NCBI RefSeq assembly: GCF_013410405.1
Contig: NZ_JACCFK010000001.1
Span: 3,286,001 to 3,350,000 of the forward strand
Direction of reading: 5' to 3'
DNA: 64,000 bases
Origin: Amycolatopsis endophytica
GTDB lineage: Bacteria > Actinomycetota > Actinomycetes > Mycobacteriales > Pseudonocardiaceae
Every line of letters starts with the position of its first letter. Within the stretch, counting starts at the first letter, position 1. The notes beneath the pieces are model-generated. The model was given only the letters and a program-made list of their open reading frames with translations. It was not told the origin of the DNA and made no database searches. This document shows positions 23,798 through 59,465 of this stretch, piece by piece. A program made the position numbers and the translations under genes.

Positions 23798-24121
23798 CCC
23801 CCCACACGGCGCCGCGAGCGGCCAACACGCCGCCCGGAGGGGCAAACACGCCGCCCGGAGGGGCAAACACGCCGCCCGGAGCGGCCAACACACCGGGTCG
23901 CGCCGTGTTGGCCGTTCCGGCTGGCGTGTTGGCCCTTGCGGGCGCCGTGTTTGCCCCTCCGGGACGGCCAACCACCCACCAAACCGGCGCACGGCAACGC
24001 AACCCAGCCACCAGGCCGCCCAGCCCTCCCCCGCACCCCGATCCCCGGCCGCAGAAACAATCAAAAATCGGGGCGGCCACAACCCAATCCACCCGCGCGC
24101 AGCGCAGAACCCGCGTAGCGG
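23798..24121. repeat. intergenic 21-nt-period inverted array (island A)
   Basis: This 328-base stretch has no gene. Core GGC(C/A)AACAC occurs at 23820, 23841, 23862 and 23883, exactly 21 nt apart. Its complement GTGTT(G/T)GCC then occurs at 23905, 23926 and 23947, again 21 nt apart. The linkers are GCCGCCCGGAG plus G or C. The innermost copies form a 10-bp hairpin, CGGCCAACAC/GTGTTGGCCG. Further right, 24046-24082 is a near-identical inverted copy of 38999-39035 in island C. The right end is ACCCGCGTAGCGG (24109-24121). It lies between convergent genes. Confidence 0.85.
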
Positions 24122-24125
24122 ACCA

Positions 24126-24536
24126 TCACGAAGAAGGACTCAACTTCAACAGCAACCCCCTTAGCGCCTCCCGCTCCTCAACCGTCAACCGCCCGAGCAC
24201 AACCCCGTTGACCCGCGCCGCCACCTCCTGGGCCTGCCGCAGCACAGCCCGCCCCTCCTCGGTCAACCGCAGGATCCTCCGCCGCCGATCACTGCCGATG
24301 GAACGCGTGATCAACCCCCGGCTCTCCAACCGCAGCATCAAATTCGCCAACGTCGCCTTGTCGATCGCCGCTCGCTGACCCGCTGTGGCCTGGTCGACGT
24401 CGTCCCCCTCGGCGATCACCAGCAGCACCGCGTACTGCGGCTTCGTCAGGGTGGGCAGTTCGGCCTGCCACAGTGCGCCGTGCTCCTGCAGGGCGCGGCG
24501 CATGACGTGGAACACGGCTTCGTCGACAGCGGTCAT
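24126..24536 (-). CDS. MarR family transcriptional regulator
   Basis: A 136-aa winged-helix regulator. TKPQYAVLLVIAEGDDVDQ and the recognition region AIDKATLANLMLRLESRGLI are typical, followed by the wing RRRRILRLTEEGRAVL. ATG 24536 was preferred; a GTG two codons upstream is possible. It is divergent to a Vdc-type phenolic acid decarboxylase operon, and MarR proteins of this kind usually repress such operons until a phenolic acid binds. A 14-bp perfect palindrome lies in the shared gap. Its stop is next to island A. Confidence 0.9.
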   Translation of the reverse strand: MTAVDEAVFHVMRRALQEHGALWQAELPTLTKPQYAVLLVIAEGDDVDQATAGQRAAIDKATLANLMLRLESRGLITRSIGSDRRRRILRLTEEGRAVLRQAQEVAARVNGVVLGRLTVEEREALRGLLLKLSPSS

Positions 24537-24563
24537 GAGCACATGTTAGTATGAACACGAAAG

Positions 24564-24577
24564 GTTCGTATACGAAC
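24564..24577. promoter_or_regulatory. MarR operator candidate
   Basis: GTTCGTATACGAAC is a perfect 14-bp palindrome in the 56-base gap between the MarR gene and the decarboxylase operon. A related half-site, GTATGAAC, lies upstream at 24549-24556. The palindrome is 15 bases before the start codon, so occupancy would block initiation of the operon. Binding is inferred. Confidence 0.65.
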
Positions 24578-24592
24578 TATCAGGGAGGCGGG

Positions 24593-25159
24593 ATGCGGCT
24601 GATCGTCGGGATGACCGGGGCCACGGGTGCGCCGCTCGGGGTCCGGCTGCTCGAAGCGCTCCACGACCTGTCCGGGGTCGAGACGCACCTGGTGCTCTCC
24701 CGCTGGGCCCGCACCACGATCGAGCTGGAAACGTCCTACAGCGCCAGGGAAGTCGGCAAGCTCGCCGACGTCGTGCACGGCGCGGGCGACCAGGCCGCGA
24801 CGATCTCGTCCGGCTCGTTCCGCACCGACGGCATGGTCGTCGTGCCGTGCAGCATGAAAACCGTGGCCGGGATCCGGGCCGGGTACGCCGACGGGCTCGT
24901 CGGCCGCGCCGCCGACGTCGTGCTCAAGGAACGCCGCAAGCTCGTCCTGGTGCCGCGCGAGACGCCGCTGAGTGAGATCCACCTGGACAACATGCTCGCG
25001 CTGTCCCGGATGGGCGTGCGCATCGTGCCGCCGATGCCCGCCTTCTACAACCACCCGCGATCCGTGGACGACATCGTCGATCACGTCGTCGCCCGCGTGC
25101 TGGACCAGTTCGACCTGCCCGCGCCGAACGCCCAGCGCTGGTCCGGTCTGCATCGATAG
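24593..25159 (+). CDS. vdcB: UbiX-like flavin prenyltransferase (decarboxylase subunit B)
   Basis: A 188-aa flavoprotein of the UbiX/Pad1 family. MTGATGAPLGVRLLEAL is the FMN/phosphate loop, VVPCSMKTVAGI the conserved second site, and VLVPRETPLSEIHLDNML the C-terminal prenyl-phosphate site. The family makes prenylated FMN, the cofactor of UbiD decarboxylases. GGGAGG precedes the ATG. With the following UbiD-like and CxxC protein genes it forms a BCD set as in the vanillate/4-hydroxybenzoate decarboxylase operon of Streptomyces. The symbol is by analogy. Confidence 0.9.
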   Translation: MRLIVGMTGATGAPLGVRLLEALHDLSGVETHLVLSRWARTTIELETSYSAREVGKLADVVHGAGDQAATISSGSFRTDGMVVVPCSMKTVAGIRAGYADGLVGRAADVVLKERRKLVLVPRETPLSEIHLDNMLALSRMGVRIVPPMPAFYNHPRSVDDIVDHVVARVLDQFDLPAPNAQRWSGLHR

Positions 25160-25169
25160 GAGGAAACCC

Positions 25170-26591
25170 ATGCCCTACGACGACTTCCGGTCGTTCCTGC
25201 ACACCCTGGACGACCAGGGGCAGCTGCTGCGGATCACCGAGGAGGTCGCGCCCGAGCCCGACCTCGGCGCCGCCGCGAACGCCGCCCCGCGCCTGGGTGA
25301 CAAGGCTCCCGCGCTGTACTTCGACAACGTCACCGGCTTCACCGACGCGCGCATCGCGCTGAACGTCCACGGCTCATGGGCCAACCACGCGCTGGCGATG
25401 GGACTGCCGAAGCAGACCGGGATCAAGGACCAGGTCGCCGAGTTCATCCGCCGCTGGGAGCGGTTCCCCGTGCCCGTCGAGCGGCGGGAGGACCCGCCGT
25501 GGGCGGAGAACGTGCTCGACGGTGAGGACGTGAACCTGTTCGACGTGCTGCCCCTGTTCCGGCTCAACGACGGCGACGGCGGGTTCTACCTGGACAAGGC
25601 GGCGGTCGTCTCGCGCGACCCCGAGGACCCGGAGAACTTCGGCAAGCAGAACGTCGGCGTGTACCGGATGGAGGTCAAGGGCAGGGCCAAGCTGGGGCTG
25701 CAGCCGGTGCCGATGCATGACATCGCACTGCACCTGGCGAAGGCCGAGGGGAACGGCGAGGACCTGCCGGTCGCGATCGCGCTCGGCAACGATCCGGTGA
25801 TCTCGATCGTCGCGGCCACCCCGATGGCCTACGACCAGAGCGAGTACGAGATGGCGGGCGCCCTCCGCGGCGCGCCGGCGCCGGTCGCGACCGCGCCGCT
25901 GACCGGGCTGGACGTGCCGTGGGGCTCGGAGGTGATCCTGGAAGGCGTCATCGAGGGCCGCAAACGTGAGATCGAGGGGCCGTTCGGCGAGTTCACCGGC
26001 CACTACTCGGGCGGGCGGAACATGACCGTCGTGCGCGTCGACCGGATCTCCTACCGCACCAAGCCGGTCTTCGAATCGCTCTACCTCGGCATGCCGTGGA
26101 CCGAGATCGACTTCCTGATGGCCGCCAACACCTGCGTGCCGATCTACCAGCAGCTCAAGGAAGCCTTCCCGGAGGTGCAGGCGGTCAACGCGATGTACAC
26201 CCACGGGTTGCTCGCGATCATCTCGACGAAGAAACGCTACGGCGGGTTCGCCAAGGCCGTCGGGATGCGGGCGATGACCACGCCGCACGGACTCGGCTAC
26301 GTCAAGACCGTGATCATGGTGGACGAGGACGTGGACCCGTTCAACCTGCCACAGGTGATGTGGGCACTGTCCACAAAGGTCAACGCGGCCGGTGACCTGG
26401 TGAACATCCCGAACCTGCCGGTGCTGGAGCTGGATCCCGGATCGCAGCCCGCCGGCATCACGAACAAGATGATCATCGACGCGACGACCCCGGTCGCACC
26501 CGACGATCGCGGTCACTACAGCCAGCCGGTGCGGGATCTGCCCGAAGCCGCCGGATGGCTGACGAAGTTGCAGGGAATGCTGGCGCAGTAA
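25170..26591 (+). CDS. vdcC: UbiD-family phenolic acid decarboxylase (subunit C)
   Basis: A 473-aa UbiD-type decarboxylase. The active-site motif EGPFGEFTGHYSGGR carries the two conserved glutamates, and IVAATPMAYDQSEYEMAGAL is a family signature. It non-oxidatively decarboxylates hydroxyarylic acids such as vanillate or 4-hydroxybenzoate using prenyl-FMN made by the neighbour. AGGAGG lies six bases before the ATG. Position between the UbiX-like and the small CxxC protein supports the VdcC/ShdC assignment; the exact substrate is not decided by the sequence. Confidence 0.9.
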   Translation: MPYDDFRSFLHTLDDQGQLLRITEEVAPEPDLGAAANAAPRLGDKAPALYFDNVTGFTDARIALNVHGSWANHALAMGLPKQTGIKDQVAEFIRRWERFPVPVERREDPPWAENVLDGEDVNLFDVLPLFRLNDGDGGFYLDKAAVVSRDPEDPENFGKQNVGVYRMEVKGRAKLGLQPVPMHDIALHLAKAEGNGEDLPVAIALGNDPVISIVAATPMAYDQSEYEMAGALRGAPAPVATAPLTGLDVPWGSEVILEGVIEGRKREIEGPFGEFTGHYSGGRNMTVVRVDRISYRTKPVFESLYLGMPWTEIDFLMAANTCVPIYQQLKEAFPEVQAVNAMYTHGLLAIISTKKRYGGFAKAVGMRAMTTPHGLGYVKTVIMVDEDVDPFNLPQVMWALSTKVNAAGDLVNIPNLPVLELDPGSQPAGITNKMIIDATTPVAPDDRGHYSQPVRDLPEAAGWLTKLQGMLAQ

Positions 26592-26601
26592 GGAGAACCC
26601 G

Positions 26602-26826
26602 ATGTGCCCACGTTGTGAATTCGACACGATCGAGAAGCTGGCCGATTCGCCGGTCGCGGGGGTGTGGGAGGTGCTGCAGTGCCAGCGGTGCCTCTACACG
26701 TGGCGGACGACGGAGCCGCTGCGCCGCACGAGCCGGGAACACTACCCGGAGGAGTTCCGGATGACGCAGGCGGACATCGACAACGCGCCCGAGGTGCCGT
26801 CCGTGCCCCCGCTGCGGACGCGCTGA
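26602..26826 (+). CDS. vdcD: phenolic acid decarboxylase subunit D, zinc-ribbon-like
   Basis: A 74-aa protein with two CxxC pairs, CPRC at residues 2-5 and CQRC near 27-30, suggesting a small metal-binding ribbon. The following WRTTEPLRRTSREHYPEEFR is characteristic of the D subunit found only in BCD-type decarboxylase operons. AAGGAG precedes the ATG. The role of D is unclear in the family; it is needed for or associated with activity. The stop overlaps the next start by one base (TGATG). Confidence 0.88.
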   Translation: MCPRCEFDTIEKLADSPVAGVWEVLQCQRCLYTWRTTEPLRRTSREHYPEEFRMTQADIDNAPEVPSVPPLRTR

Positions 26827-27050
26827 TGGCCGACACGCTGATGTGGGAGGTGCGGGCGGCGCCAGGGCGGCGTTCCGAGCTGGCCTCCTGGGTGGTCGAG
26901 CACGTGCCCGGACCGGCCGAGGTGTACCTCGGGGGGCAGGACCGGGTGGTGGTGATCGCCCGCGGCGCGTCCCGGCTGCCGGAGCCGCCGCCGGAGCTGC
27001 TGGCGCGGCCGGTGGCCCAGTGGCCGTTCACGCACCACCGGTCGCTGTAG
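26826..27050 (+). CDS. small hypothetical protein of the decarboxylase operon
   Basis: A 74-aa protein translationally coupled to vdcD. It opens MADTLMWEVRAAPGRRSELA and contains VYLGGQDRVVVIARG, a pattern like a short alpha/beta ferredoxin-like (antibiotic-monooxygenase-type) fold. No catalytic residues can be named. The tight coupling argues that it works with the decarboxylase, but the function is unknown. Confidence 0.65.
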   Translation: MADTLMWEVRAAPGRRSELASWVVEHVPGPAEVYLGGQDRVVVIARGASRLPEPPPELLARPVAQWPFTHHRSL

Positions 27051-27152
27051 CGCGGCCGCGGGCCGCCGCCCGCCGGAGGAAGGCGTGCCAACCGGCGGCG
27101 ACTGTGCCAAGCTCGCCACTGCAACGGGTCACCGCGGACTTGGAGGGCGCAC

Positions 27153-27899
27153 ATGGAGCGGGTCGGCACCGGCGAGCACGTCGTGCTCGTGCTGCACGGC
27201 TGGTTCGGGTCGTCGACGGCGTGGAAGGACCTCACGCCGCACCTCGACGGCCAGCGGTTCAGCTACGTCTTCCCCGACTTCCGGGGCTACGGCACGCGCA
27301 AGGACGAAGCGGGCGCGCACACCATCGCCGAAATGGCCGGCGACATGCTGCTGCTCGCCGACGAACTGGGCATCGACCGGTTCTCCGTCGTCGGGCACTC
27401 GATGGGCGGCAGCGTCATGCAGTACATCCTCGCCGAAGCGCCCGGCCGGGTCCGGTCCCTCTTCGGGATCTCCCCGGTCCCGGCCGGCGGGGTGCCGTTC
27501 GACGAGGAGACCTGGCAGCTGTTCGGCAGCGCGGCCGAGGACCCGGCGAGCCGTCGCGCGATCATCGACTTCACCACCGGCGGCCGCCACCCCGACGCGT
27601 GGCTCGAGGGCATGGTCATCCACTCGCTGGAGAACTCCGACAAGGCCGCGTTCGGCGAGTACCTCGGCGCGTGGGCGAAGACCGACTTCTCCGAGCGGAT
27701 CGCGGGCAACGAGGTACCGGTCAAGGTCGTCGTCGGTGAGCACGACCCGGCGCTGTCCGAGGAGTTCATGCTCGCGACCTTCGGCCAGTGGTACCCGAAA
27801 CTGGAACTCGAAGTGATGCCCGACGCCGGGCACTACGCCGCCGACGAGGTCCCGGTGACGCTCGCCAACACGATCGAAGTGTTCCTGGACGAGCACTGA
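27153..27899 (+). CDS. alpha/beta hydrolase
   Basis: A 248-aa alpha/beta-hydrolase fold enzyme. HGWFGSSTAW is the oxyanion region. The nucleophile is Ser83 in GHSMGG, the acid is the Asp in VVGEHDPAL, and the catalytic His lies in PDAGHYAADEVP. GGAGGG precedes the ATG. It overlaps the P450 start by one base and so forms an operon with it. Substrate unknown: an ester or C-C bond hydrolase acting with the P450 on an aromatic or terpenoid/steroid compound is plausible. Confidence 0.88.
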   Translation: MERVGTGEHVVLVLHGWFGSSTAWKDLTPHLDGQRFSYVFPDFRGYGTRKDEAGAHTIAEMAGDMLLLADELGIDRFSVVGHSMGGSVMQYILAEAPGRVRSLFGISPVPAGGVPFDEETWQLFGSAAEDPASRRAIIDFTTGGRHPDAWLEGMVIHSLENSDKAAFGEYLGAWAKTDFSERIAGNEVPVKVVVGEHDPALSEEFMLATFGQWYPKLELEVMPDAGHYAADEVPVTLANTIEVFLDEH

Positions 27900-29137
27900 T
27901 GTCCGGTGTGGACGTCTTCGACCCGAGGGTGTTCGCCCGTGGCATACCGCACGACGAGCTGCGCCGCCTGCGTGACGCCGAACCCGTCGCGTGGCAGGAC
28001 GAACACGAGGTGCTGGACTGGCCCGCCGGGCCCGGCTACTGGGCCGTGACACGTTACGACGATGTCCGGCACGTCCTGCGCACCCCCGAGGTGTTCTCGT
28101 CGTGGCTCGGTGCCACCCAGATCCGCGACCCCGAACCCGACGACCTCGCGTTCATCCGGCGCATGATCCTCAACATGGACGCGCCCGAGCACAACCGCCT
28201 GCGCCGCATCGTGTCCGCGGTGTTCACCCGGCGCAGGCTGGAACGCTCGGCCGACCAGATCGCCGCGCGTGCGCGTGCCCTGATCGGAGCGGTCGTGCCG
28301 CGTGGTCAGTGCGACCTGCCCGTCGAGGTCACCGACGACTTTCCGCTGCTCAACCTCGCCGACCTGATCGGGGTGCCGCCCGAGGACCGCGGGCTGCTGC
28401 TGAAGTGGACCAACCGCGTCATCGGCTACCAGGACCCGGAACACGCCGAGGTCGTCCGCGACGCGCAGGGGAAGCCGGTGAACCCCCGATCACCCGCGAT
28501 GCTGGCGGACATGTTCGACTACGCGCAGGAACTGGCCTCGGCCAAACGGCGCGATCCGGCCGACGACCTGATGACCGCGTTGGTTCAAGCCACTGTGGAC
28601 GGTCGCTCGCTGGACGACGCCGAGCTGCGGATGTTCTTCTTCCTGATGGTGATCGCCGGCAACGACACCGTGCGCAGCGCGTTGCCGGGCGGGGTGCTGG
28701 CGCTGGTGCAGAACCCGGGTGAGTACCGGCGGTTGCGGGCCGATCCGGATCTGGTGCCGTCGGCGGTCGAGGAGATGCTGCGCTGGCATCCGCCGGTGCT
28801 GACGTTCCGGCGTACGGCGGTGCGTGACGTGGAATTGGGGGGTGCGCGGATCGCGGCGGGGGACAAGGTCGTGGTGTATTTCGCGTCGGCGCACTTCGAT
28901 GAGCGGAGGTATCCGGATCCGTATCGGTTCGATGTGACGCGAGGGGCGGAGCATTTGGCGTTCGGGCAGGGGCCGCATCTGTGTCTGGGGGCGCATTTCG
29001 GGCGGTTGCAGATGCGGGTGTTCTTCCGGGAGTTTCTGACTTTGCTGCCCGAGGTGCAGGTGGGCGGGGAGGTGCGGCGGTTGACGTCGAACTTCATCAA
29101 CGGGGTGACGCATTTGCCGTTGGTGTGGGGTTTGTAG
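27899..29137 (+). CDS. cytochrome P450
   Basis: A 412-aa class I bacterial P450. The haem-binding Cys362 is in FGQGPHLCLG, the oxygen-activating I-helix is AGNDT at 253-257, and ExxR is Glu292-Arg295. The ILNMDAPEHNRLRRIVS segment and the C-terminal NGVTHLPLVW resemble CYP124/125/142-type steroid or lipid hydroxylases more than the guaiacol demethylase GcoA, although a vanillate decarboxylase operon lies upstream. No ferredoxin or reductase gene is adjacent. The stop codon TAG is formed by the first bases of repeat island B. Confidence 0.9.
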   Translation: MSGVDVFDPRVFARGIPHDELRRLRDAEPVAWQDEHEVLDWPAGPGYWAVTRYDDVRHVLRTPEVFSSWLGATQIRDPEPDDLAFIRRMILNMDAPEHNRLRRIVSAVFTRRRLERSADQIAARARALIGAVVPRGQCDLPVEVTDDFPLLNLADLIGVPPEDRGLLLKWTNRVIGYQDPEHAEVVRDAQGKPVNPRSPAMLADMFDYAQELASAKRRDPADDLMTALVQATVDGRSLDDAELRMFFFLMVIAGNDTVRSALPGGVLALVQNPGEYRRLRADPDLVPSAVEEMLRWHPPVLTFRRTAVRDVELGGARIAAGDKVVVYFASAHFDERRYPDPYRFDVTRGAEHLAFGQGPHLCLGAHFGRLQMRVFFREFLTLLPEVQVGGEVRRLTSNFINGVTHLPLVWGL

Positions 29138-29285
29138 CCGCTACGCGGGTTGGAGTTCGCGCCCCGGAACGCAGAACTCACCGACGAGAGCGTGGAACTC
29201 GCGCGCGGGAACGTGGGACTCGCCGGGCGGGTCGGCGAGTCCCACGTCACGTTCGCCCGGCGCACTGACACCCGCGTAGCGGCTA
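29135..29285. repeat. intergenic 21-nt-period array with perfect terminal inverted repeats (island B)
   Basis: The element is bounded by TAGCCGCTACGCGGGT (29135-29150) and its exact complement ACCCGCGTAGCGGCTA (29270-29285). Inside, cores GCAGAACTC (29171), GTGGAACTC (29192) and GTGGGACTC (29213) are 21 nt apart, then GAGTCCCAC follows inverted at 29237. The centre forms a perfect 12-bp stem, GTGGGACTCGCC/GGCGAGTCCCAC, with a 9-nt loop. Both convergent genes (P450 and pxpA) end in TAG stops that are the outermost bases of the element. Confidence 0.88.
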
Positions 29286-30044
29286 CGCGGCGAACGCTTC
29301 CACCGAAACCCCGGCTTCCACCAGGGCTGCCCGGACTCGGTGGCCGATCTCCACTGCTCCCGGCGTATCTCCGTGCAGGCACAGGGACTCGGGCCGTACC
29401 TGCACCTCGCTGCCGTCGATGGCGGTGACCACGCCCTCCGTCGCCATCCGGACGCAGCGTCGCACGACCTCGTCGGGGTCGTGGATCACCGCACCGGGCT
29501 CCCGCCGGGAAACGAGAGTACCTTCCGGCGTGTAAGCCCGGTCGGCAAAGGCTTCACGCACGGGACGCAGACCGGCGGCCTCCGACTGGCGCAGCCATTC
29601 CGAACCCGGCAACCCGAGCACCGGCAACGACGGGTCGAACAGCCGCACCGCTTCGACCACCGCCGCGGCCTGGTCGGCGTGGTGCACGATCGCGTTGTAG
29701 AGCGCGCCGTGTGGCTTCACGTAGGCGACCCGGGTGCCCGCAATCCTGGCGAAAGCGTCCAGGGCGCCGATCTGGTACAGCACGTCGTTGACCAGCTCGT
29801 CCGCGGTCACGTCCATGAACCGTCGCCCGAATCCCGCCAGGTCACGGTAGGCGACCTGCGCCCCGACCGCGACACCACGGGCAGCCGCGGCGGCTGTCAC
29901 GGTGCGCAGCGTGCTGGGATCGCCGGCGTGGAAACCACAGGCGACGTTCGCGCTCGACACGATCTCCAGAAGCGCGTCGTCCTCCGTCAGGTGCCAGGCG
30001 CCGAAACCCTCACCCAGATCCGCGTTCAGATCCACCCCGGTCAC
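29283..30044 (-). CDS. pxpA: 5-oxoprolinase subunit A (LamB/YcsF family)
   Basis: A 253-aa protein. The family opening VDLNADLGEGFGAW and SANVACGFHAGDPSTL are clear, along with VKPHGALYNAIVHH and the C-terminal LCLHGDTPGA. PxpA, with PxpB and PxpC, hydrolyses 5-oxoproline; the B and C subunits are not in this window. The start overlaps the cobN stop by four bases (ATGA), so it is translationally coupled to a cobalamin gene although no metabolic link is obvious. Its stop is formed by island B. Confidence 0.9.
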   Translation of the reverse strand: MTGVDLNADLGEGFGAWHLTEDDALLEIVSSANVACGFHAGDPSTLRTVTAAAAARGVAVGAQVAYRDLAGFGRRFMDVTADELVNDVLYQIGALDAFARIAGTRVAYVKPHGALYNAIVHHADQAAAVVEAVRLFDPSLPVLGLPGSEWLRQSEAAGLRPVREAFADRAYTPEGTLVSRREPGAVIHDPDEVVRRCVRMATEGVVTAIDGSEVQVRPESLCLHGDTPGAVEIGHRVRAALVEAGVSVEAFAA

Positions 30045-33631: not shown

Positions 33632-33682
33632 GGGGGTTCCCTCCTAGGTCCCCTCAACCCTGTCCGCCAGGAAGGCCCCGAG

Positions 33683-35669: not shown

Positions 35670-35704
35670 AGTTGTTCTCCCCAGTGGTGCGCCAGTGCGA
35701 TGAA

Positions 35705-35724
35705 ATGTAGCAGACCTACTACAT
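35705..35724. promoter_or_regulatory. inverted repeat in the ABC operon/cobG divergent promoter
   Basis: ATGTAG (35705-35710) and CTACAT (35719-35724) form 6-bp arms with an 8-base spacer in the 103-base gap between the ABC operon and cobG. It may be the operator of the XRE regulator or belong to the divergent promoters. No cobalamin riboswitch boxes were found here. Confidence 0.45.
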
Positions 35725-35772
35725 ATGACCCAAGTCCTACTTCGGGGCCTTGGCGCCGTTTACAGTGAGCGC

Positions 35773-38920: not shown

Positions 38921-38932
38921 GGTTTCGTGCCG

Positions 38933-39470
38933 TAGCCGCTACGCGGGTGTTTGCGCTGCGCGCGGCTGCAAGCGCCGGCTTCGCTTCGCTACGCCCAGAT
39001 TGTGGCCGCCCCGATTTTTCATTGTTTCTCCGGCCGAGCAGGGGCTGTCAAGGCGGGAAAGAGTACCTTGACAGCCCCTGATCGTCCGCAGAACTGGGCT
39101 GTGTATCGGGGTGCGGGGGAGGCTGGGCGGCTTTCGGGTCGGGTTGCGTTGCCGGGTGGCGGTGTGGTGGGTGGGCGGCGGGTGCGCGAATGCAGAACTC
39201 GCGTGCGAGAGGGTGGGACTCGCCCGCCGGAGCGTGGGACTCGCCGACGTGCCCGGCGAGTCCCACGTTCCGGGCCGCGAGTTCTGCGTTCCCGCGCGCG
39301 AATTCCACGTTCGCGCGGTGCCCGGCAACGGTAGGCGACCCGGCGCGTTGCCTGCCGGCCTTTCCTCTCCCGCAACCGATCCCCAGCCAAAGAAAATGAA
39401 GGATCGGGTCCGGGAGGGGCGATCGCTTGCGAGCTTGCGAGCCCGGCGCCCTCGACACCCGCGTAGCGGC
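38933..39470. repeat. large 21-nt-period array element (island C)
   Basis: Together with short flanks this fills the 591-base gap between cobIJ and the arabinosyltransferase; it holds no credible gene. It begins TAGCCGCTACGCGGGTG and ends CACCCGCGTAGCGGC. Cores GCAGAACTC (39192), GTGGGACTC (39213) and GTGGGACTC (39234) are followed by inverted GAGTCCCAC (39258), GAGTTCTGC (39279) and GAATTCCAC (39300), all at 21-nt steps. The centre forms a perfect 12-bp stem. Between the left end and the array lie a block shared with island A (38999-39035) and a separate hairpin at 39040-39079. Confidence 0.85.
39040..39079. repeat. 14-bp hairpin nested in island C
   Basis: AGGGGCTGTCAAGG (39040-39053) pairs perfectly with CCTTGACAGCCCCT (39066-39079) across a 12-nt loop. 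Island A shares the sequences on both sides but lacks this hairpin, so it looks like a secondary insertion. It has no following T-tract. Confidence 0.75.
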
Positions 39471-39503
39471 AACGAAAAGAAACCCCCGCCGGAAGCGGGG
39501 GTT
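39471..39503 (-). terminator. intrinsic terminator of the arabinosyltransferase gene
   Basis: AACCCCCGC (39481-39489) and GCGGGGGTT (39495-39503) form a 9-bp stem with a 5-nt loop. On the minus strand the stem is followed by TCTTTTCGTT, a good Rho-independent terminator for the gene ending at 39512. Confidence 0.85.
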
Positions 39504-47207: not shown

Positions 47208-47378
47208 GGAGGGAGACCGTATGCGATGATCCTGGCGACGGTCTCCGTGGAACCCGGTGCGATTCCGGGGCGGTCCCGCCACTGTGACCGGCCCGAGCGG
47301 CCGGGAGCCAGAGCTTCGGTGGCCGTTACGTGCCCGGCACGTGCCCTGTTCAGGCGGGCGAGGACACCCGCGCGTGGC
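47208..47378 (+). promoter_or_regulatory. cobalamin riboswitch (chelatase-cobO-cobB-cobC operon)
   Basis: The conserved boxes of the adenosylcobalamin aptamer are present in order: GGAACCCGGTG at 47249-47259, CCGCCACTGTGACC at 47276-47289 and GGGAGCCAGA at 47303-47312. Stem partners GGAGACCGT/ACGGTCTCC flank the 5' side. The region ends just before AAGGAG (47380-47385) and the TTG start at 47391, consistent with control of translation initiation. The divergent cobL promoter must overlap it. Confidence 0.92.
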
Positions 47379-47390
47379 GAAGGAGTTCGC

Positions 47391-49361
47391 TTGAGGCCGT
47401 ATCCGTTCACCGCCGTCGTCGGGATGCCGGATCTCCGGCTCGGACTGGTGCTGTCGTCGATTTCGCCCGCCATCGGCGGTGTCCTGGTGCGTGGCGAGAA
47501 GGGCACCGCGAAGTCGACGATGGTGCGTGCGCTGGCCGGCCTGCTGCCCGAGGTCGACGTCGTGGAGGGCTGCCGCTTCTCGTGTGACCCCGTCGCGCCG
47601 GACCCGGACTGCCCGGACGCGCCCCACGGCGAGGGCGCCTTCCGCCGTCCCGCGCGGCTGGTCGAGCTGCCGGTCGGCGCGGCCGAGGACCGCGTGATCG
47701 GTTCGCTCAACCTGGAACGCGCCCTCACCGAGGGCGTCACGGATTTCCAGCCCGGTCTGCTCGCCGCCGCGCACCGCGGCCTGCTCTACGTCGACGAGGT
47801 CAACCTGCTGCACGACCACCTGGTCGACACGTTGCTCGACGCGGCGGCGATGGGCCGCGCGACCGTCGAGCGCGAGGGCGTGTCGGTGTCGCACGCGGCG
47901 CGGTTCGTGTTGATCGGCACCATGAACCCGGAGGAGGGCGAGCTGCGGCCACAGCTGCTCGACCGGTTCGGGCTGACCGTCGAAGTCGCCGCGAGCCGCG
48001 ATCCGGAGCAGCGCGCCGAGGTGATCCGCCGTCGGCTGGCCTACGAAAGCGACCCGGACTCCTTCGCCGCCCGCTTCGAGGAGTCCGACGCGCAGCTCGC
48101 GGCCGAGATCGCCGCGGCGCAGAAGCTCCTGCCCTCGGTCGAGCTGACCGACGAGGCCCTGCGGCAGATCGCCGAGGTGTGCGCGGCCTTCGAGGTGGAC
48201 GGGATGCGCGCGGACATCGTCACCGCCCGCACGGCCGTCGCGCACGCCGCCTGGAGCGGGCGCACCGAGGTGGCAGGCGAGGACATCCGCGTCGCGGCCC
48301 GCCTGGCGTTGCCGCACCGCCGTCGCCGCAACCCGTTCGACGCGCCCGGCATCGACGAGGAGCAGCTGGAACAGGCCCTGCGTGACGCCGAACCGCCGGA
48401 GGACCCGGGCCCGCCGGACGACGACGGTCCCGGTTCGGGCTCGGACGCGCCCGCGGAGGGCCAACACGGTGACCGGGACGGCCAACACGGTGACCGGAGC
48501 GGCCAACACGGTGACCGGAGCGGCCAACACGGTGGGGAGCAGAAGCCGGTCGGGAGTGGGAAGCCGTTCCGGGCCAAGAGGTTCGAGGTAGCCGGGGTCG
48601 GCGGTGAAGGCGTGCACGGCAAGCGGTCGCGGGCGGTGACCGATGCCGGGCGGACCGTCGGCGTGCACCCCGCGGGCGTGCGCGAGGGGCGGCCGCACCT
48701 GGTCGCGACCGTGCGCGCGGCCGCGCCGCACCAACGGTCACGCGGCCGGTCCGGTGCGGGCCTGGTGCTGCGGCCCAGTGACCTGCGGTTCGCGGTGCGC
48801 GAGGGGCGCGAGGGCAACCTCGTGCTGTTCTGCGTGGACGCGTCCGGATCGATGGGTGCGAAGTCGCGGATGCGGGAGGTCAAGGCCGCGGTGCTGTCGT
48901 TGCTGCTGGACGCCTACCAGCGGCGCGACAAGGTCGGGCTCGTGACCTTCCGCGCCGGGGCCGCCGATCTGGCGCTGCCGCCGACGATCAGCGTCGAGGC
49001 GGCTGCCGCGCGCCTGGAGGGCCTGCCGACCGGCGGGCGGACGCCGCTCGCGGAAGGACTTCTGGAAGCCGCGCGGGTGCTGCGGCGTGAAGCCGTACGG
49101 GATCCGCGCCGCCGTCCGCTGCTCGTCGTGGTCACCGACGGCCGGGCCACCAACGGCGCCGACGCCGTCGCGCGGTCGCAGCAGGCGGCGGACATCCTGG
49201 CGGGCGCGGGCGTCGCGTCCGTGGTGATGGACTGCGAGACCGGGCGCATGCGGCTCGGGCTCGCGGCGGAGCTGGCCGCGCGGCTGGGCGGCGAGCACGT
49301 GCCGCTGGGCGAGGTCGCGGCCGACGCACTGGCCACCGAGGTACGACGGAGGGCTGCCTGA
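47391..49361 (+). CDS. putative cobaltochelatase, fused BchI/BchD-like AAA+ and VWA subunit
   Basis: A 656-aa protein. Residues 1-330 form the AAA+ module: Walker A GEKGTAKS at 35-42 and Walker B LLYVDEVNLL at 131-140. An acidic Pro-rich linker follows, and the C-terminal von Willebrand A domain has the MIDAS motif DASGS at 483-487. It drives CobN. TTG was chosen because AAGGAG lies five bases upstream and translation then begins RPYPFTAVVGM, the family start. The linker holds four copies of a seven-codon repeat (QHGDR(S/D)G), described separately. Confidence 0.92.
   Translation: MRPYPFTAVVGMPDLRLGLVLSSISPAIGGVLVRGEKGTAKSTMVRALAGLLPEVDVVEGCRFSCDPVAPDPDCPDAPHGEGAFRRPARLVELPVGAAEDRVIGSLNLERALTEGVTDFQPGLLAAAHRGLLYVDEVNLLHDHLVDTLLDAAAMGRATVEREGVSVSHAARFVLIGTMNPEEGELRPQLLDRFGLTVEVAASRDPEQRAEVIRRRLAYESDPDSFAARFEESDAQLAAEIAAAQKLLPSVELTDEALRQIAEVCAAFEVDGMRADIVTARTAVAHAAWSGRTEVAGEDIRVAARLALPHRRRRNPFDAPGIDEEQLEQALRDAEPPEDPGPPDDDGPGSGSDAPAEGQHGDRDGQHGDRSGQHGDRSGQHGGEQKPVGSGKPFRAKRFEVAGVGGEGVHGKRSRAVTDAGRTVGVHPAGVREGRPHLVATVRAAAPHQRSRGRSGAGLVLRPSDLRFAVREGREGNLVLFCVDASGSMGAKSRMREVKAAVLSLLLDAYQRRDKVGLVTFRAGAADLALPPTISVEAAAARLEGLPTGGRTPLAEGLLEAARVLRREAVRDPRRRPLLVVVTDGRATNGADAVARSQQAADILAGAGVASVVMDCETGRMRLGLAAELAARLGGEHVPLGEVAADALATEVRRRAA
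48459..48530 (+). repeat. in-frame 21-nt repeat array in the chelatase linker (array E)
   Basis: GGCCAACAC occurs at 48459, 48480, 48501 and 48522, exactly 21 nt apart; the linkers are GGTGACCGG(G/A)(A/G)C. The frame encodes Gln-His-Gly-Asp-Arg-Ser/Asp-Gly repeats at about residues 357-382. The core, period and CCGGAGC linker end match the arrays of islands A and C, so the repeat appears to have entered a coding sequence. Confidence 0.85.
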
Positions 49362-53041: not shown

Positions 53042-53095
53042 CGCACGCCCCCCACTGTGGCATTGGTGGCGTCAGACGCATCGGGGGAACGGAGG

Positions 53096-54738: not shown

Positions 54739-54774
54739 ACCCGGCATTCTCGTGCACGGGCTACCGTCCCGTGT

Positions 54775-55701
54775 GTGGTGGATGCAAGATCGTTGACCGC
54801 GCTCGGTCTCGTGACCGGTTACGCGCTGGACGCGGCCGTCGGCGACCCGCGCCGCGGTCACCCGGTCGCCCTGTTCGGCCGCGCCGCGCATGCCCTGGAG
54901 CAGCGCGTTTGGCGCGACTCCCGCGCCAGGGGGGCCGCGTATGCCGTCACCTGCGTGGGAGCGGCCGCCGGACTGGGGGCGCTCGCCCAGTCCGTGAGAC
55001 GGCCCCCGGCGCGTGTCGTGATCACCGCGCTCGCCACCTGGACCGTGCTCGGCGGACGCGGGCTCGCGGCCGAGGGCGAGGCGATGGCTGCGCGGCTCGA
55101 AGCGGGGGACGTGCCCGCCGCCCGCCGGCGGCTGGGCCACCTGTGCGGACGCGACGCCTCCGTGCTGGACCAAAAGGGCCTGGCCAGGGCCGCGACCGAG
55201 TCGATCGCCGAGAACACCAGCGACGCCGTCGTCGCGCCACTGCTGTGGGGCGCGGTCGCGGGGGTGCCCGGCCTGCTCGGGTACCGGGCGCTCAACACGC
55301 TCGACGCGATGGTCGGGCACCGCACGCCGCGCTTCGAGCGGTTCGGCTGGGCCGCGGCCCGCGGCGACGACCTCGCCAACCTGCTGCCCGCCCGTGCCGG
55401 GGCGCTGGCCGCTGCCTTGTGCGCGCCGCTCGTGCGTGGCCGTCCGGGGCGGTCGCTGAAGGTCTGGCGCCGCGACGCCGCCCGGCACCCGAGCCCCAAC
55501 GCGGGGCAGATCGAGGCCGCCTTCGCCGGCGCGCTCGACGTGCGGCTGGGCGGCGTCAACACTTACGGCGGCAAGGTCGAGGACCGCGGCACCCTCGGCG
55601 ACGGTCCCGCTCCCGGCGCCGCCGATCTGCGCCGGGCGGTGCGGTTGTCCCGCGCGGTCGGGCTGGCCGCGCTGGCGCTGGCCGTGGCGGTGGCGCGGTG
55701 A
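54775..55701 (+). CDS. cobD: adenosylcobinamide-phosphate synthase CobD (CbiB)
   Basis: A 308-aa membrane protein. GYALDAAVGDPRRGHPVALF, ARAATESIAENTSDAVVAPL and FGWAAARGDDLANLLPARAG are family motifs. It attaches the aminopropanol arm to adenosylcobyrate. Two tandem GTG codons (54775, 54778) are possible starts; no ribosome-binding site is seen in the 36-base gap to cobU, so the message is probably leaderless. cobQ starts in its stop (GTGA). Confidence 0.93.
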   Translation: MVDARSLTALGLVTGYALDAAVGDPRRGHPVALFGRAAHALEQRVWRDSRARGAAYAVTCVGAAAGLGALAQSVRRPPARVVITALATWTVLGGRGLAAEGEAMAARLEAGDVPAARRRLGHLCGRDASVLDQKGLARAATESIAENTSDAVVAPLLWGAVAGVPGLLGYRALNTLDAMVGHRTPRFERFGWAAARGDDLANLLPARAGALAAALCAPLVRGRPGRSLKVWRRDAARHPSPNAGQIEAAFAGALDVRLGGVNTYGGKVEDRGTLGDGPAPGAADLRRAVRLSRAVGLAALALAVAVAR

Positions 55702-57164
55702 GGGGCCTGCTGGTCGCCGGGACCACTTCGGACGCCGGGAAGAGCCTGGTCACGGCGGGCATCTGCCGCTGGCTCGCGCGGCGTGGCCTGCGGGTGGCGC
55801 CGTTCAAGGCGCAGAACATGTCGAACAACTCGATGGTGTGCGCGGACGGCGCGGAAATCGGGCGCGCCCAGTGGCTGCAAGCGGTCGCCGCCGGGGTCGA
55901 GCCGGAGGCGGCGATGAACCCGGTGCTGCTCAAACCGGGCAGCGACCGGCGCAGCCACGTGATCGCGCTCGGGAAACCGTTCGGGACGCTGGAGGCCGGC
56001 GAGTTCGCCACCGGCCGTCGTGAACTGGCGCGAATCGCGTTCGACGCCTTCGACGATCTGCGCGGCCGGTTCGACGTCGTGGTGTGCGAGGGCGCGGGCA
56101 GCCCGGCGGAGATCAACCTGCGGCAGGGCGACTACGTCAACATGGGCCTCGCGCGGCGGTTTTCGCTGCCGGTGCTGGTGGTCGGGGATATCGACCGCGG
56201 CGGCGTGCTGGCCGCCATGTACGGCACGGCCGCGTTGCTGGAACCCGGGGACCAGGCGCTGCTGGCCGGGTGGGTGGTCAACAAGTTCCGCGGCGACGAG
56301 TCGCTGCTGCGGCCCGGTCTGGACCGGATCGCCGAGCTGACGCACCGGCCCGTGCTCGGGGTGCTGCCGTGGCTGGACGGCGTGTGGATCGACTCCGAGG
56401 ACGCGCTCGCCGCGGCGGGATGGCGGCACGAGCAGGCCACGACCGGCGGCTTGCGGATCGCGGTGGTGCGGTTCCCGAGGGCGTCGAACGCGACCGACGT
56501 GGACGCGCTCGCCGCCGAACCGGGCGTGACGGTGACCCTGACCGCGGACCCGGACACCGTGCGCGCGGCGGATGTCGTGGTGCTGCCCGGAACGCGCGCG
56601 ACCGTGGACGATCTGCGGTGGCTGCGCTCGCGGGGACTGGACGCCGCGCTGGCCGCGCGGACCGGGCCGGTGCTGGGGATCTGCGGCGGCTACCAGATGC
56701 TGGCGGAGACCATTGTGGACGATGTGGAGTCGGTGGCGGGAAAGGTTTCCGGGCTCGGACTGCTGCCGACCACCGTGACGTTCAGCGAGGAGAAGGTGCT
56801 CGGCCGTCCGGTCGCGCGATGGCGCGGGCACGCGGTCGCGGCGTACGAGATCCACCACGGCAGCGCGTTCTTGCACGGCGAGGGCGTGGAACCGTTCCTG
56901 GACGGCTGGCGCCGCGGCGCGGTGTGGGGCACGACCTGGCACGGTGCGTTCGACAACGACGACTTCCGGCGGGCGTGGCTCTCCGAGGCGGCGGCGCAGG
57001 CCGGGGTTTCCTGGTCGCCCGCGCCGGGCGCACCCGGTTTCGCGGAGCTGCGGGAGTCGATGCTGGACCGGCTCGCCGACGCGATCGAGGAGCGCCTCGA
57101 CACCGGGGCGCTCCTCGACCTCATCGAGCGAGGCTCACCGGAGGACCTGCCGCCGGTGCGGTGA
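55698..57164 (+). CDS. cobQ: cobyric acid synthase CobQ
   Basis: A 488-aa glutamine amidotransferase. LVAGTTSDAGKSLVTAGICR is the ATP site, FKAQNMSNNSMV the substrate motif, and GICGGYQMLAETIVDD carries the nucleophile Cys of the glutaminase domain; EIHHGS near the end is the partner His. It amidates the b, d, e and g side chains. The final 44 bases overlap the convergent cbtA. Confidence 0.95.
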   Translation: MRGLLVAGTTSDAGKSLVTAGICRWLARRGLRVAPFKAQNMSNNSMVCADGAEIGRAQWLQAVAAGVEPEAAMNPVLLKPGSDRRSHVIALGKPFGTLEAGEFATGRRELARIAFDAFDDLRGRFDVVVCEGAGSPAEINLRQGDYVNMGLARRFSLPVLVVGDIDRGGVLAAMYGTAALLEPGDQALLAGWVVNKFRGDESLLRPGLDRIAELTHRPVLGVLPWLDGVWIDSEDALAAAGWRHEQATTGGLRIAVVRFPRASNATDVDALAAEPGVTVTLTADPDTVRAADVVVLPGTRATVDDLRWLRSRGLDAALAARTGPVLGICGGYQMLAETIVDDVESVAGKVSGLGLLPTTVTFSEEKVLGRPVARWRGHAVAAYEIHHGSAFLHGEGVEPFLDGWRRGAVWGTTWHGAFDNDDFRRAWLSEAAAQAGVSWSPAPGAPGFAELRESMLDRLADAIEERLDTGALLDLIERGSPEDLPPVR

Positions 57165-57861
57165 GGGCCCGCCGCGCCAGCAGGCCGAACGTCACGCCGA
57201 GCACCGTCCACAGCACGACCTGCGTGCCGAGCGACGCGATCCGGAAGTCCCACAGCGTGGTGGCCGGGAAGTCCTCCGGCACCTCGTTGATCACGGGCAT
57301 CAGTCGTGCCGTCAGGGCCGCCGGCACCAGGTACACCGCGCCGCCCGCGATCGCTCCCGCGGCCGCACCGGATCTGAGCGCCACCTGCCGTCCGGCAGCC
57401 GCCGCGGCGACCGCGAACGCCAGTGACAGCGCGATGAATCCGAAGTAGAGCCCGGTTCGCTCGCCGATCGTGTCCGGCTGCCCGACGGCGGGCGGGTTCG
57501 CCGGGTACTTGAGGAACGGCACCAGCACGACGACCACGAACGCCGCGCCCGTGAGCAGCGTGGCCGTCGGGCCGGGGCGAAGCGAACCGAGGCGGCCGTA
57601 GACGAGCGCGAAAGCGATGGCGAGCAGGCCACCGATCGCGATCCCGTACACCCCGACGGCGGTGAGCAGCCCGAGCGTGCTCTGCACACCGCGGGACACC
57701 AGCTCCTCTTCGTGGCTGTGCTCCCCGGACGCGTGCGCGGCCGCTTCTTCGAGCCCGATCGCGGCGTTCACCGGCGGTTCCCCGACGGCGTAGGCGAAGA
57801 GCGCGGCCAGGACAGCGGCGATCAGGCCCGCGAGCATCCCGCGGACCAGCAGCGCGCGCAT
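57121..57861 (-). CDS. cbtA: CbtA cobalt transporter-like membrane protein
   Basis: A 246-aa membrane protein with about five or six hydrophobic helices, e.g. MLAGLIAAVLAALFAYAVG and VGVYGIAIGGLLAIAFALVY. A His/Glu-rich loop (HASGEHSHEEE near residues 47-57) may bind Co(II). CbtA occurs with CbtB under B12 riboswitches and is predicted to import cobalt. It overlaps the cbtB stop by one base. Confidence 0.9.
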   Translation of the reverse strand: MRALLVRGMLAGLIAAVLAALFAYAVGEPPVNAAIGLEEAAAHASGEHSHEEELVSRGVQSTLGLLTAVGVYGIAIGGLLAIAFALVYGRLGSLRPGPTATLLTGAAFVVVVLVPFLKYPANPPAVGQPDTIGERTGLYFGFIALSLAFAVAAAAAGRQVALRSGAAAGAIAGGAVYLVPAALTARLMPVINEVPEDFPATTLWDFRIASLGTQVVLWTVLGVTFGLLARRALTAPAAGPPVSLAR

Positions 57862-58070
57862 CAGTGGCAGGGGAAGGCCAGCAGGTGCCGGCCGTCGTGG
57901 ACGAATTCGTGGATGTAGCTGTTCGCGAAGATCGCGAAGGCGCCCTGCTCGGCGCTCACGAAGTAGAGGGCGATCAACGCGAGGAGCCCGGCGAAGAACG
58001 CCCACGGGGCGATCTCCCGCACCGGGATGCGGACCGGGATGGGCGCGGAAACCGCGACGGCCTGGGACAT
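57861..58070 (-). CDS. cbtB: CbtB cobalt transporter subunit
   Basis: A 69-aa protein with one transmembrane helix (WAFFAGLLALIALYFVS) and the diagnostic C-terminal motif HEFVHDGRHLLAFPCH, rich in His, likely the cobalt-binding site. GGAGG lies 13-14 bases before the ATG. It is preceded by a cobalamin riboswitch. Longer forms would read into the riboswitch. Confidence 0.92.
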   Translation of the reverse strand: MSQAVAVSAPIPVRIPVREIAPWAFFAGLLALIALYFVSAEQGAFAIFANSYIHEFVHDGRHLLAFPCH

Positions 58071-58094
58071 GGCGGAAGTACCTCCTCGGGCGTA

Positions 58095-58220
58095 CGCGGC
58101 CCGGTCAGGGGTGGCGCGACGGCTCGGGTCTGACTCCCCGTTTCGGCGGGTCACAGTGGCGCGTCCGTGCGGGTTCTCACCGCGTTCCGAGTCCATCGCC
58201 TGGCCGTCCCAAGGTAAAGC
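58095..58220 (-). promoter_or_regulatory. cobalamin riboswitch (cbtB-cbtA operon)
   Basis: On the minus strand the boxes GGAACGCGGTGAGA (58188-58175), CGCCACTGTGACCC (58161-58148) and GGGGAGTCAGA (58139-58129) appear in order and spacing of the adenosylcobalamin aptamer. The ribosome-binding site of cbtB lies shortly after. High B12 would switch off cobalt uptake. Confidence 0.93.
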
Positions 58221-58244
58221 ACACCTGAGAGGTTTTCAACGCGC

Positions 58245-59030
58245 TCAGACGAGCGTCACCCGGACGCCTTCGAGTTCGAACGCCGAGACCAGGTCCGGTT
58301 CGGCGGCCGAGTCCGTGATCAGCATGTGGATGTCCAGGGTCGGGCAGATGCGGGCGAACGCGTATCCGCCCAGCTTCGAGCTGTCGGTCACCACGACGAC
58401 CTTCTTGGCCCGGTGCGCGAGCAACTTGTTGACCGCGGCCTCGGCCTCGTGGTTGGCGTAGGCGCCCCGCAGCGGGTCGACCGCGTCCACGCCGATGAAG
58501 GCGAGATCGAGGCTGACCTCCTCCAGCATGATGCCGGTGAGGTGCCCGGTCAGCTCGAACGATTGCGGCCGCGCCACGCCGCCGGTGCTGACCAGCCGGA
58601 TGCTCTGCCGCACGGTCAGTTCGTGCGCGATGTTGACCGCGTTGGTCACCACGGTCAGCACCGGGGAACTGCCACGATCGTTGAATTCGGGACGACTCGC
58701 AATCGCGCGGCTCACCTCGGTGGTGGTGGTTCCGCCGTTGCAGCCGATCACCATTCCGCGCTCCACGAGCCGGGCCGCGGCCTCGGCGATGCGGCGCTTT
58801 TCCACGGTGTGCCGGGACGCGCGATGACGGCCGGGAAGATCGTAAGCAACATTTCCGGCGACGGCCCCGCCCCGCGTTCTCGTGAGCAATTGGCGACTTG
58901 CCAAATGATCGAGGTCACGGCGGACCGTCGCAGGCGAAACACTCAGTTTCCCCGCGGCCCGGTCGACGTCGATCCGCCCGTGCTGCCCGATCATCTCCAA
59001 CAGGGTGTTCAGCCGCTCATGCCGGTCCAC
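58245..59030 (-). CDS. DeoR/GlpR family transcriptional regulator
   Basis: A 261-aa regulator. The N-terminal helix-turn-helix has ERLNTLLEMIGQHGRIDVDR and LSVSPATVRRDLDHL, followed by the DeoR sensor domain with GCNGGTTTTEVSRAI and DLAFIGVDAVDP. It probably binds a sugar phosphate. No sugar gene is adjacent in the window, so the target is unknown. The upstream region to 59288 shows no gene. Confidence 0.9.
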   Translation of the reverse strand: MDRHERLNTLLEMIGQHGRIDVDRAAGKLSVSPATVRRDLDHLASRQLLTRTRGGAVAGNVAYDLPGRHRASRHTVEKRRIAEAAARLVERGMVIGCNGGTTTTEVSRAIASRPEFNDRGSSPVLTVVTNAVNIAHELTVRQSIRLVSTGGVARPQSFELTGHLTGIMLEEVSLDLAFIGVDAVDPLRGAYANHEAEAAVNKLLAHRAKKVVVVTDSSKLGGYAFARICPTLDIHMLITDSAAEPDLVSAFELEGVRVTLV

Positions 59031-59288
59031 CCATCAGTAATACCGAATCTTGAGCCGGATGTGAACCGGATCTTCCTGAAGGCGTGCGGGACCGGTTGTT
59101 GGTGTTTTACTCACCGGGACGGAAAAATGGATTTGATGACCTTGTTGAATGCGCCCGGGTTTGCGGTGGCGGCGCCGCGAGGCCCCTGTCGAAAAATGTG
59201 CGGCGCCGCCACCTGCTGATAAGTCGCCGATTGCGGACGGTGGATACGGAATGAGGTGGTTTTCACTCTGATGGCGCAGTGCGTGGGG
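59031..59288. other. noncoding stretch upstream of the DeoR regulator
   Basis: These 258 bases hold no credible gene. AT content is somewhat raised near 59036-59150 relative to the flanks, as expected for a promoter of the leftward regulator. No strong inverted repeat or riboswitch was found. Reading frames here lack normal codon bias. Confidence 0.5.
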
Positions 59289-59465
59289 CGCTACGCGGGC
59301 CGGGCGCGGTTGGCGAGCGTGGGGTTCGGGGTGCTGAGTGTGGAACTCGGTGTCGGGAAGGTGGGACTCGCCCGGCGGAGGGTGGGACTCGTCGAGGGTG
59401 GGCGCGAGTTCCACGCTCCTGCGCGTGAGTTCTGCGTTCCGGTGCCTGAGGTGGGCGGCGCGCTA
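59289..59465. repeat. intergenic 21-nt-period array (island D)
   Basis: Cores GTGGGGTTC (59319), GTGGAACTC (59340), GTGGGACTC (59361) and GTGGGACTC (59382) are 21 nt apart, followed by inverted GAGTTCCAC (59406) and GAGTTCTGC (59427). The central gap is 15 nt, as in islands B and C. A left-end remnant CGCTACGCGGG lies at 59290-59300. The right end is degenerate, but the TAG stop of the SDR gene again lies at the border. Unlike the other islands it is not between convergent genes. Confidence 0.8.

Follow-up and report, generated by a model that had tools for sequence, protein, structure and literature searches.

Several described repeat systems come close to the elements analyzed here. The repetitive extragenic palindromic (REP) sequences of enterobacteria and pseudomonads occur in composite forms known as bacterial interspersed mosaic elements (BIMEs), which bind proteins including gyrase, and as REP doublets forming hairpins (REPINs). 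The short tandemly repeated repetitive (STRR) sequences of cyanobacteria are contiguous heptanucleotides, iterons and phased operators place direct sites about two helical turns apart, and the TTF-I/Sal-box terminator arrays of ribosomal DNA act as a protein roadblock in an orientation-dependent manner. The mycobacterial interspersed repetitive units and variable number tandem repeats (MIRU/VNTR) have longer units and are not known to show helical spacing or a shared 9-nt core. To our knowledge, no dispersed roadblock system of this kind is known in bacteria, and transcription ending in high-GC actinobacteria, notably between convergent genes, is poorly understood. Here, we analyzed a 64,000-nt stretch of the Amycolatopsis endophytica genome (contig NZ_JACCFK010000001.1, positions 3,286,001 to 3,350,000; hereafter the window), in which four intergenic islands (A–D) and one array inside a chelatase-like gene (array E) carry a 9-nt core, GNNNRACWC, repeated at a step of 21 nt. 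At roughly even odds (a probability of about 0.5), such arrays would be tandem double-stranded DNA sites for a putative cooperative protein that may act as a boundary or transcription roadblock at gene ends.

A sequence-only reading of the window had first described these arrays, and our analysis confirmed them as a real observation, with A to E located where that reading had placed them when the coordinates were re-read. Counting both strands, the window contains 189 copies of the core. Among them, 17 pairs lie exactly 21 nt apart, whereas 100 first-order Markov shuffles averaged 0.23 such pairs and never gave more than 2; one of the 17 pairs, at 47886 inside the chelatase-like gene, looks like chance. 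For a wider view, we used an own-genome sample of 1.264 Mb, consisting of the window and 60 stretches of 20 kb taken at even intervals along the 7.2-Mb genome. A scan of its intergenic DNA (131.7 kb) for any period from 8 to 59 nt, with no motif assumed, yielded 38 clusters with period 21 and 17 with period 42, none at 20 or 22, and none at 14, 28 or 35 (period 7 lies outside the scan range). Inside the genes of the sample, the same type of scan gave 4 clusters at period 21. When 30 intergenic arrays were taken from periodicity alone at a slightly looser cut, 29 of them carried at least two cores on one strand.

The 21-nt phase is kept in further copies, as the sequence-only reading had asked. 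The next core lies at 21 nt in 256 cases in own-genome arrays (1 at 19, none at 20 or 22) and in 873 cases in other genomes (14 at 22, 3 at 20 and 3 at 19), and spacings of 18 nt (once) and 24 nt (never) are nearly absent. Neighbouring units differ at 0.11 of core positions versus 0.35 of linker positions (127 pairs, with units located by a matrix trained on cores). At the usual bacterial indel rate, substitutions this frequent together with such scarce small indels argue for selection on spacing, and the earlier interpretation of 21 nt as two helical turns is supported. The linker also holds conserved positions: in 90 of 110 diversity-chosen windows, and counting only positions not imposed by the search motif, the consensus is G10 (0.78), C15 (0.83), G18 (0.83), A19 (0.87), R20 and C21 (0.69). 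The emerging site form is GARC-G-NNN-RACWC-G, in which both the triplet and the linker vary.

The arrays had been taken as one family with two core versions. This holds in the own genome because both versions end their linker in CGGARC and hybrid cores such as GGCCAACTC are found; in other genomes, further cores are added. Core words vary among genome sets and include GGGGGACTC, GTGGGACTC, GGGCAACTC and GGCCAACAC, among others. Some arrays with GTGTCCGACAC-type cores have palindromic units; cores of this kind, readable on both strands, were seen at loci L163 (near 1227–1283) and L161 (7959–7990), from Actinophytocola and Haloechinothrix.

The arrays are abundant in the own genome and spread across many genera of the Pseudonocardiaceae. 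A weight-matrix scan identified 39 elements in the 1.264 Mb sample: 22 between convergent genes, 12 between co-directional genes, 3 between divergent genes, 1 at a stretch edge and 1 in a gene (array E). This corresponds to about 200–220 elements genome-wide (based on 39 elements with the window and 34 when it is left out). At E ≤ 1e-4, a sequence-only model trained on 70 diverse three-core windows matched 111 of 297 family genomes (counting the own genome), which represent 25 of 46 genera; no more than 18 candidates per genome were scored, so that counts are lower bounds. In a phylum-wide sample, in which the family is shown for listed genomes only, 7 of 295 other genomes matched, all outside the family, once each and weakly (24–28 bits). 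The expected presence in related Pseudonocardiaceae is thereby borne out. Within Amycolatopsis, the distribution is patchy: matches range from 1 to 28 per genome, with at least 11 in 13 of 19 genomes and 1–3 in the other 6. These six array-poor genomes (G003, G006, G008, G014, G016 and G018; G numbers denote the compared genomes, the own genome being G000) have rich congeners (e.g. G005, G010, G013 and G017) and provide a contrast set toward a putative binding protein.

A single array used as DNA query matched 47 of 249 family genomes. A degenerate-pattern search of named genomes returned at least 120 stretches, and the matches listed include Amycolatopsis, Prauserella, Haloechinothrix, Saccharomonospora, Crossiella, Actinophytocola and Actinokineospora, along with single hits in three unrelated metagenome-assembled genomes (Woeseiaceae, Gemmatimonadetes and Acidobacteria). 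The latter three were kept within the other-genome set in all counts of layout, position, frame, orientation and anchoring given below. Plasmids gave no match to island A as the only query, phages gave none to an A. thermalba array as the only query, and we found no published description of these repeats in the open-access literature searched.

Next to genes, the arrays show a bias toward 3' ends. Genes were called by codon usage with an open reading frame (ORF) caller trained on the own genome (1225 genes, 89% coding in the sample), and the same codon model was applied to the other genomes. All loci with gene calls together hold 373 runs of at least two cores. Of these, 38 fall in called genes (30 of them have only two cores and may be chance); at a cut of 60 nt, 192 are close to a 3' end, 21 close to a 5' end and 122 farther away. 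Random placement gave 1083 (3') to 1612 (5') near-gene cases. Most of the 3'-proximal runs (152/192) begin within 25 nt past the stop. The suggested location between convergent genes is indeed frequent: in the own-genome sample, 20 of 77 convergent intergenic regions contain an array versus 15 of 442 others (Fisher p = 1.5e-9; regions of at least 60 nt, namely 77 convergent, 266 co-directional and 176 divergent). One further array, in a 40-nt convergent gap, falls under the cut-off and outside this count. Where co-directional regions leave free space, 62 of 80 arrays lie closer to the upstream stop (p = 8e-7), with a median position of 0.14 of the free space in other genomes (69 cases).

Orientation relative to the upstream gene is mixed once every run is assigned to a gene end (132 same, 157 opposite); a lineage-specific polarity, apparent at the 60-nt cut, disappeared with this assignment and was rejected. 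Counted from the stop, opposite-facing runs are spread over the three frames without preference (39/43/46). Due to this mixed orientation and missing frame preference, a strand-specific RNA or peptide fits poorly, and the data on position, frame and orientation point to the DNA duplex instead.

The arrangement of units within arrays bears on the proposal of a bidirectional RNA hairpin, which would serve as a terminator or as a protector of mRNA 3' ends. An inverted layout is not the defining feature for which it had been taken: of the 178 other-genome arrays, 114 have direct units only and 36 face outward, a majority of inward pairs is limited to a single set of four Amycolatopsis genomes (14/24), and 29 of 77 own-genome arrays are direct-only. 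In favour of a hairpin, arrays are located at 3' ends and inward-facing ones fold very strongly (island A, −141.5 kcal/mol, z −9.3; island C, −119.6 kcal/mol, z −7.3), with median z of −7.3 to −8.6 for two-armed arrays (up to 30 per class). Against it, the 47 direct-only arrays tested fold no better than shuffles on either strand (median z for the two strands 0.01 and 0.32 for 17 own-genome arrays, −0.20 and −0.80 for 30 others), and on this ground an RNA hairpin was rejected as the shared function. Selection on a hairpin might also have left arms that pair better in register, and no such excess was found in 43 inward-facing own-genome elements (core 7.90 in versus 7.87 out of register, of 9; linker 7.47 versus 7.26, of 12). 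The arrays have no need of RNA folding, and the strong folding seems to arise incidentally where two arrays of the same family face each other. An intrinsic terminator has a GC-rich transcript hairpin (with U-tract), and the direct-only arrays do not fold into one. Canonical terminators occur at just 2–6% of array-free gene ends, too few for comparison with arrays, and U-tract terminators are scarce in the own genome in a simple scan. At locus C, moreover, a separate hairpin-forming sequence stands at the EmbC end with or without the array, which, judged by eye, is present in the own genome and absent in several relatives. Altogether, we consider the hairpin proposal improbable.

The gaps between opposing arrays also bear on helical geometry. 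Outward-facing gaps cluster near 8–10, 18, 29–30, 41, 50 and 62 nt, and a first set (n = 32) had a best period of 10.3. With method, period and phase fixed beforehand, 60 further loci gave 9 gaps in agreement with the phase that the previous 39 had predicted (p = 0.002). All 48 outward gaps yield R = 0.53 at 10.5 (p < 0.0002; null, random gap shifts of at most 6 or 10 nt), compared with 0.24 at 7 (p = 0.06), 0.22 at 14 (p = 0.11) and 0.15 at 21 (p = 0.33), and dropping homologous spacers leaves 46 gaps with R = 0.52 at 10.5. Since there is no 21-nt signal, gain or loss of whole units cannot explain the 10.5-bp phase; a half-unit step is not obtainable in this way. Helical phasing of back-to-back arrays, with a phase of about 8 nt between cores (modulo 10.5), is thus supported but not conclusive.

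A further explanation to be weighed is that the unit codes for a heptapeptide repeat, translated by stop read-through or within small genes. A step of 21 nt equals seven codons, and array E lies in frame in the chelatase-like gene, with similar G-E-H-G-D repeats in G012 and G013. However, intergenic arrays share no common frame with the upstream stop, on which ground coding or read-through is largely refuted for them; the near absence of 18- and 24-nt spacings and the 10.5-bp phasing also argue against coding, which we regard as scarcely credible. For array E itself, in-register 21-nt units occur in the chelatase-like linker of the own genome (GGCCAACAC, four times) and of G013 and G012 (GGCGAACAC and GGCCAACTC kinds), coding for G-Q/E-H-G-D, with a degenerate form in G001 and none in the other 14 of 18 genomes (3 of the 14 judged from protein sequence only). 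The common core, linker end and period suggest that the unit may sometimes land in a disordered linker. Protein-level selection with biased codons could be an alternative origin; membership of array E in the family, suggested before, is plausible but not proven. A cobalamin riboswitch (RF00174, 35 bits) lies ahead of the same gene at 47249–47309.

The features of the window are collected in Table 1. A direct-then-inverted layout around a centre of 13–15 nt, described before for all intergenic islands, stands for A, C and D (with the last core of D degenerate) but not for B, which has a single inverted core and is not two-armed. Island A is flanked by a short ORF on the plus strand (stop at 23797) and a MarR-like gene (Pfam MarR) on the minus strand at 24126–24542. 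Island B begins 12 nt past the stop of a P450 gene, and the stop of an SDR gene (59463, Pfam) is only 6 nt from the end of the inverted arm of island D.

Table 1 Arrays and associated repeats in the 64,000-nt window (positions count from its first letter).
Feature	Position	Strand	Remarks
Island A, direct arm	23820–23891	+	4 units, core GGCMAACAC
Island A, inverted arm	23905–23955	−	3 units; centre gap 13
REP-like terminal repeat left of island B	29134–29150	+	GTAGCCGCTACGCGGGT; GTAG includes the P450 gene stop codon
Island B, direct part	29150–29233	+	3 strict units (29171–29221) and a degenerate first unit
Island B, inverted core	29237–29245	−	lone core GAGTCCCAC; gap 15
REP-like terminal repeat right of island B	29270–29286	−	includes the stop codon of the LamB/YcsF gene (Pfam)
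REP-like terminal repeat, left end of island C composite	38932–38948	+	
Left H module	39000–39165	+	GATTTTTCATTGTTTCT ... GTTGCCGGG; approximate borders; nested TCAAGG hairpin 39039–39080
Island C, direct arm	39192–39242	+	3 units, core GYRGRACTC
Island C, inverted arm	39258–39308	−	3 units; centre gap 15
Right H module	39321–39410	−	CCCGGCAACG ... CCGATCCCCAGCC ... GGATCGGG; approximate borders
REP-like terminal repeat, right end of island C composite	39457–39473	−	
Array E	48459–48530	+	4 in-frame units coding GQHGDRx; AAA-VWA linker of chelatase-like gene 47424–49361 (Pfam)
Island D, direct arm	59340–59390	+	3 units, core GTGGRACTC
Island D, inverted arm	59406–59456	−	3 units, outermost core degenerate; gap 15

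In the own genome, arrays are often found within larger composites. Insertions B and C are bounded by a repeat of the form GTAG + CCGCTACGCGG(GT), which looks like a REP in its motif; the bounds of insertion B, GTAGCCGCTACGCGGGT ... ACCCGCGTAGCGGCTAC, supply both flanking stop codons. The REP-like repeat is present in 12 of 519 intergenic regions of the sample, and all 12 hold an array; none of the 16 intergenic copies is more than 255 nt away from a 21-nt array, and 5 more matches fall in genes. The H module accompanies arrays in 14 of 23 intergenic regions. Nested in the H module of island C is a distinct repeat, a perfect 15-bp hairpin (CAGGGGCTGTCAAGG ... CCTTGACAGCCCCTG), and all 8 intergenic regions of the own genome with this TCAAGG hairpin also hold an array.

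These composites could suggest a non-autonomous mobile element (a miniature inverted-repeat transposable element, MITE, or a REPIN) with REP-like ends and the array as cargo, and B and C are indeed insertions flanked by the REP-like repeat, with empty sites in relatives. The idea of a mobile element thus finds some support in the own genome, but beside the 178 arrays of other genomes the REP-like 12-mer was not found within 300 nt in a single case. Likewise, G005 and G017 have REP-like pieces but no array at loci B or C, element sizes are variable, and no target-site duplication was seen by eye at B and C. The earlier remark that no transposase is seen also applies genome-wide to the Y1 family: the own genome (96.6% complete) has no match to the Y1 transposase domain (PF01797), whereas controls were positive in 5 of 14 genomes, and mobilisation by a REP-associated tyrosine transposase (RAYT) was rejected on this basis. 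As a general explanation, a mobile element is unlikely, and we give it very little weight.

Comparison of equivalent loci revealed fast turnover. At locus B (15 loci, about 285 nt, compared by eye), only the own genome has the array; the ends of the two genes almost abut in most relatives, and G005 and G017 contain other repeat pieces. At locus C, an array is present in 2 of 18 genomes with the flanking gene, the own genome and G004, the latter differing in core type and layout (two loci in this comparison are interrupted by contig ends). The G004 array, from a more distant Amycolatopsis, has AACAC cores and occupies the same methylase–Emb intergenic region (L302, about 2010–2200, reverse complement). 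In G017, the left end of the composite and an H module stand at locus C without an array. As B and C are missing in nearly all relatives compared, no single array is indispensable.

The main rival starts from this turnover: a selfish or neutral dispersed tandem repeat would spread by duplication and copying and persist only at the least harmful sites, past stop codons and between convergent genes, and the 21-nt step would stem from amplification. Besides presence and absence at loci B and C, the patchy distribution among the 19 Amycolatopsis genomes, the company of other repeats in the own genome (REP-like, H module and nested hairpin) and the greater likeness of array neighbours than of random unit pairs are in agreement with this explanation. 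Yet the linkers of neighbours diverge by about one third while 1–2 nt indels remain rare, and 25 of the 46 genera sampled share the core. Crowding at the stop (median 0.14 of the free space in other genomes) goes beyond promoter avoidance, and the 10.5-bp phasing is also difficult to reconcile with neutral spread. We therefore see this rival as possible, albeit on the unlikely side.

Returning to tandem protein sites, a regulatory or nucleoid protein array, one of the candidates named at the outset, continues to be supported as such by the spacing, core and position of the repeats. From these features we infer a protein, its binding and a roadblock or boundary role. The 21-nt units, approximately GARC-G-NNN-RACWC-G, are predicted duplex sites for a putative Pseudonocardiaceae protein, probably a cooperative one. 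Head-to-tail sites two turns apart would place all bound molecules on one face of the DNA, where a filament could form. A bound row behind stop codons or between convergent genes may then constitute a boundary, either as a roadblock halting or slowing RNA polymerase whichever side it comes from or, alternatively, as a clamp or supercoil sink at converging transcription. A bolder version, in which about 200 phased arrays per genome, maintained past stop codons in many Pseudonocardiaceae, would end or insulate transcription by a bidirectional protein roadblock rather than by hairpin or Rho, with convergent back-to-back arrays held in register, is tentative and in our view rather doubtful.

Several observations weigh against protein sites at gene ends. 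No candidate binding protein was found, arrays B and C are absent at the equivalent place in nearly all relatives compared, and 6 of 19 Amycolatopsis genomes have almost no arrays. In the own genome, where arrays often sit inside composites, anchoring in co-directional regions is weak compared with other genomes (median 0.45 of the free space, 11 cases), and 30 of 67 runs have no gene within 60 nt. Same-facing runs are low in frame 0 (18/91). Concerning helical phase, the 10.5-bp signal was first noticed and not predicted, the next 9 gaps alone (strict cores) had no 10.5 signal (p = 0.68), and 8 gaps with lenient ends gave p = 0.44. There are also off-phase outward gaps, e.g. 33 and 38 (three times), and inward-facing centre gaps fit no single helical phase (own genome mostly 13–15, also 4 and 11–12; elsewhere 10–12 and 13–15).

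A family-wide repeat with a stop-codon bias and two-turn spacing is a concrete candidate for transcription control at gene ends. If a protein reads the arrays, it would represent a novel type of chromosome organiser or termination factor in bacteria; even if none does, this is a large repeat family in an antibiotic-producing group, undescribed in the literature searched.

Compared with known systems, the arrays resemble REP, BIME and REPIN sequences (REPINs as defined in PMC3116915) in being dispersed, extragenic and multicopy, in their enrichment at 3' ends and between convergent genes, and in their inverted pairs. They differ from them in a generally non-palindromic 21-nt unit, in direct-only arrays without a hairpin, in helical spacing and in having no Y1-type match in the own genome. 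With cyanobacterial STRR sequences and the TAACTGA heptamers of Beggiatoaceae they share intergenic head-to-tail repeats, many per genome, and a suspected binding factor. According to PMC4679880, the majority of TAACTGA sets in Beggiatoaceae stand just ahead of start codons, and some sets in cyanobacteria and Bacteroidetes follow stop codons. Those heptamers lack spacers, whereas our arrays have a 21-nt unit with conserved core and variable linker, mostly behind stops. MIRU/VNTR loci are likewise tandem intergenic actinobacterial repeats near gene ends. Like iterons and phased operator arrays, the 21-nt arrays consist of direct sites at whole helical turns, two per step, with a conserved core; unlike them, they lie at neither origin nor promoter, occupy about 200 places per genome and have no cognate protein found. 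Their mixed orientation sets them apart from the orientation-dependent Sal-box. As in TTF-I/Sal-box arrays and in roadblock terminators (protein roadblocks to bacterial RNA polymerase are described in PMC13082048), the proposed row of bound proteins behind a transcription unit would, by analogy, halt the polymerase.

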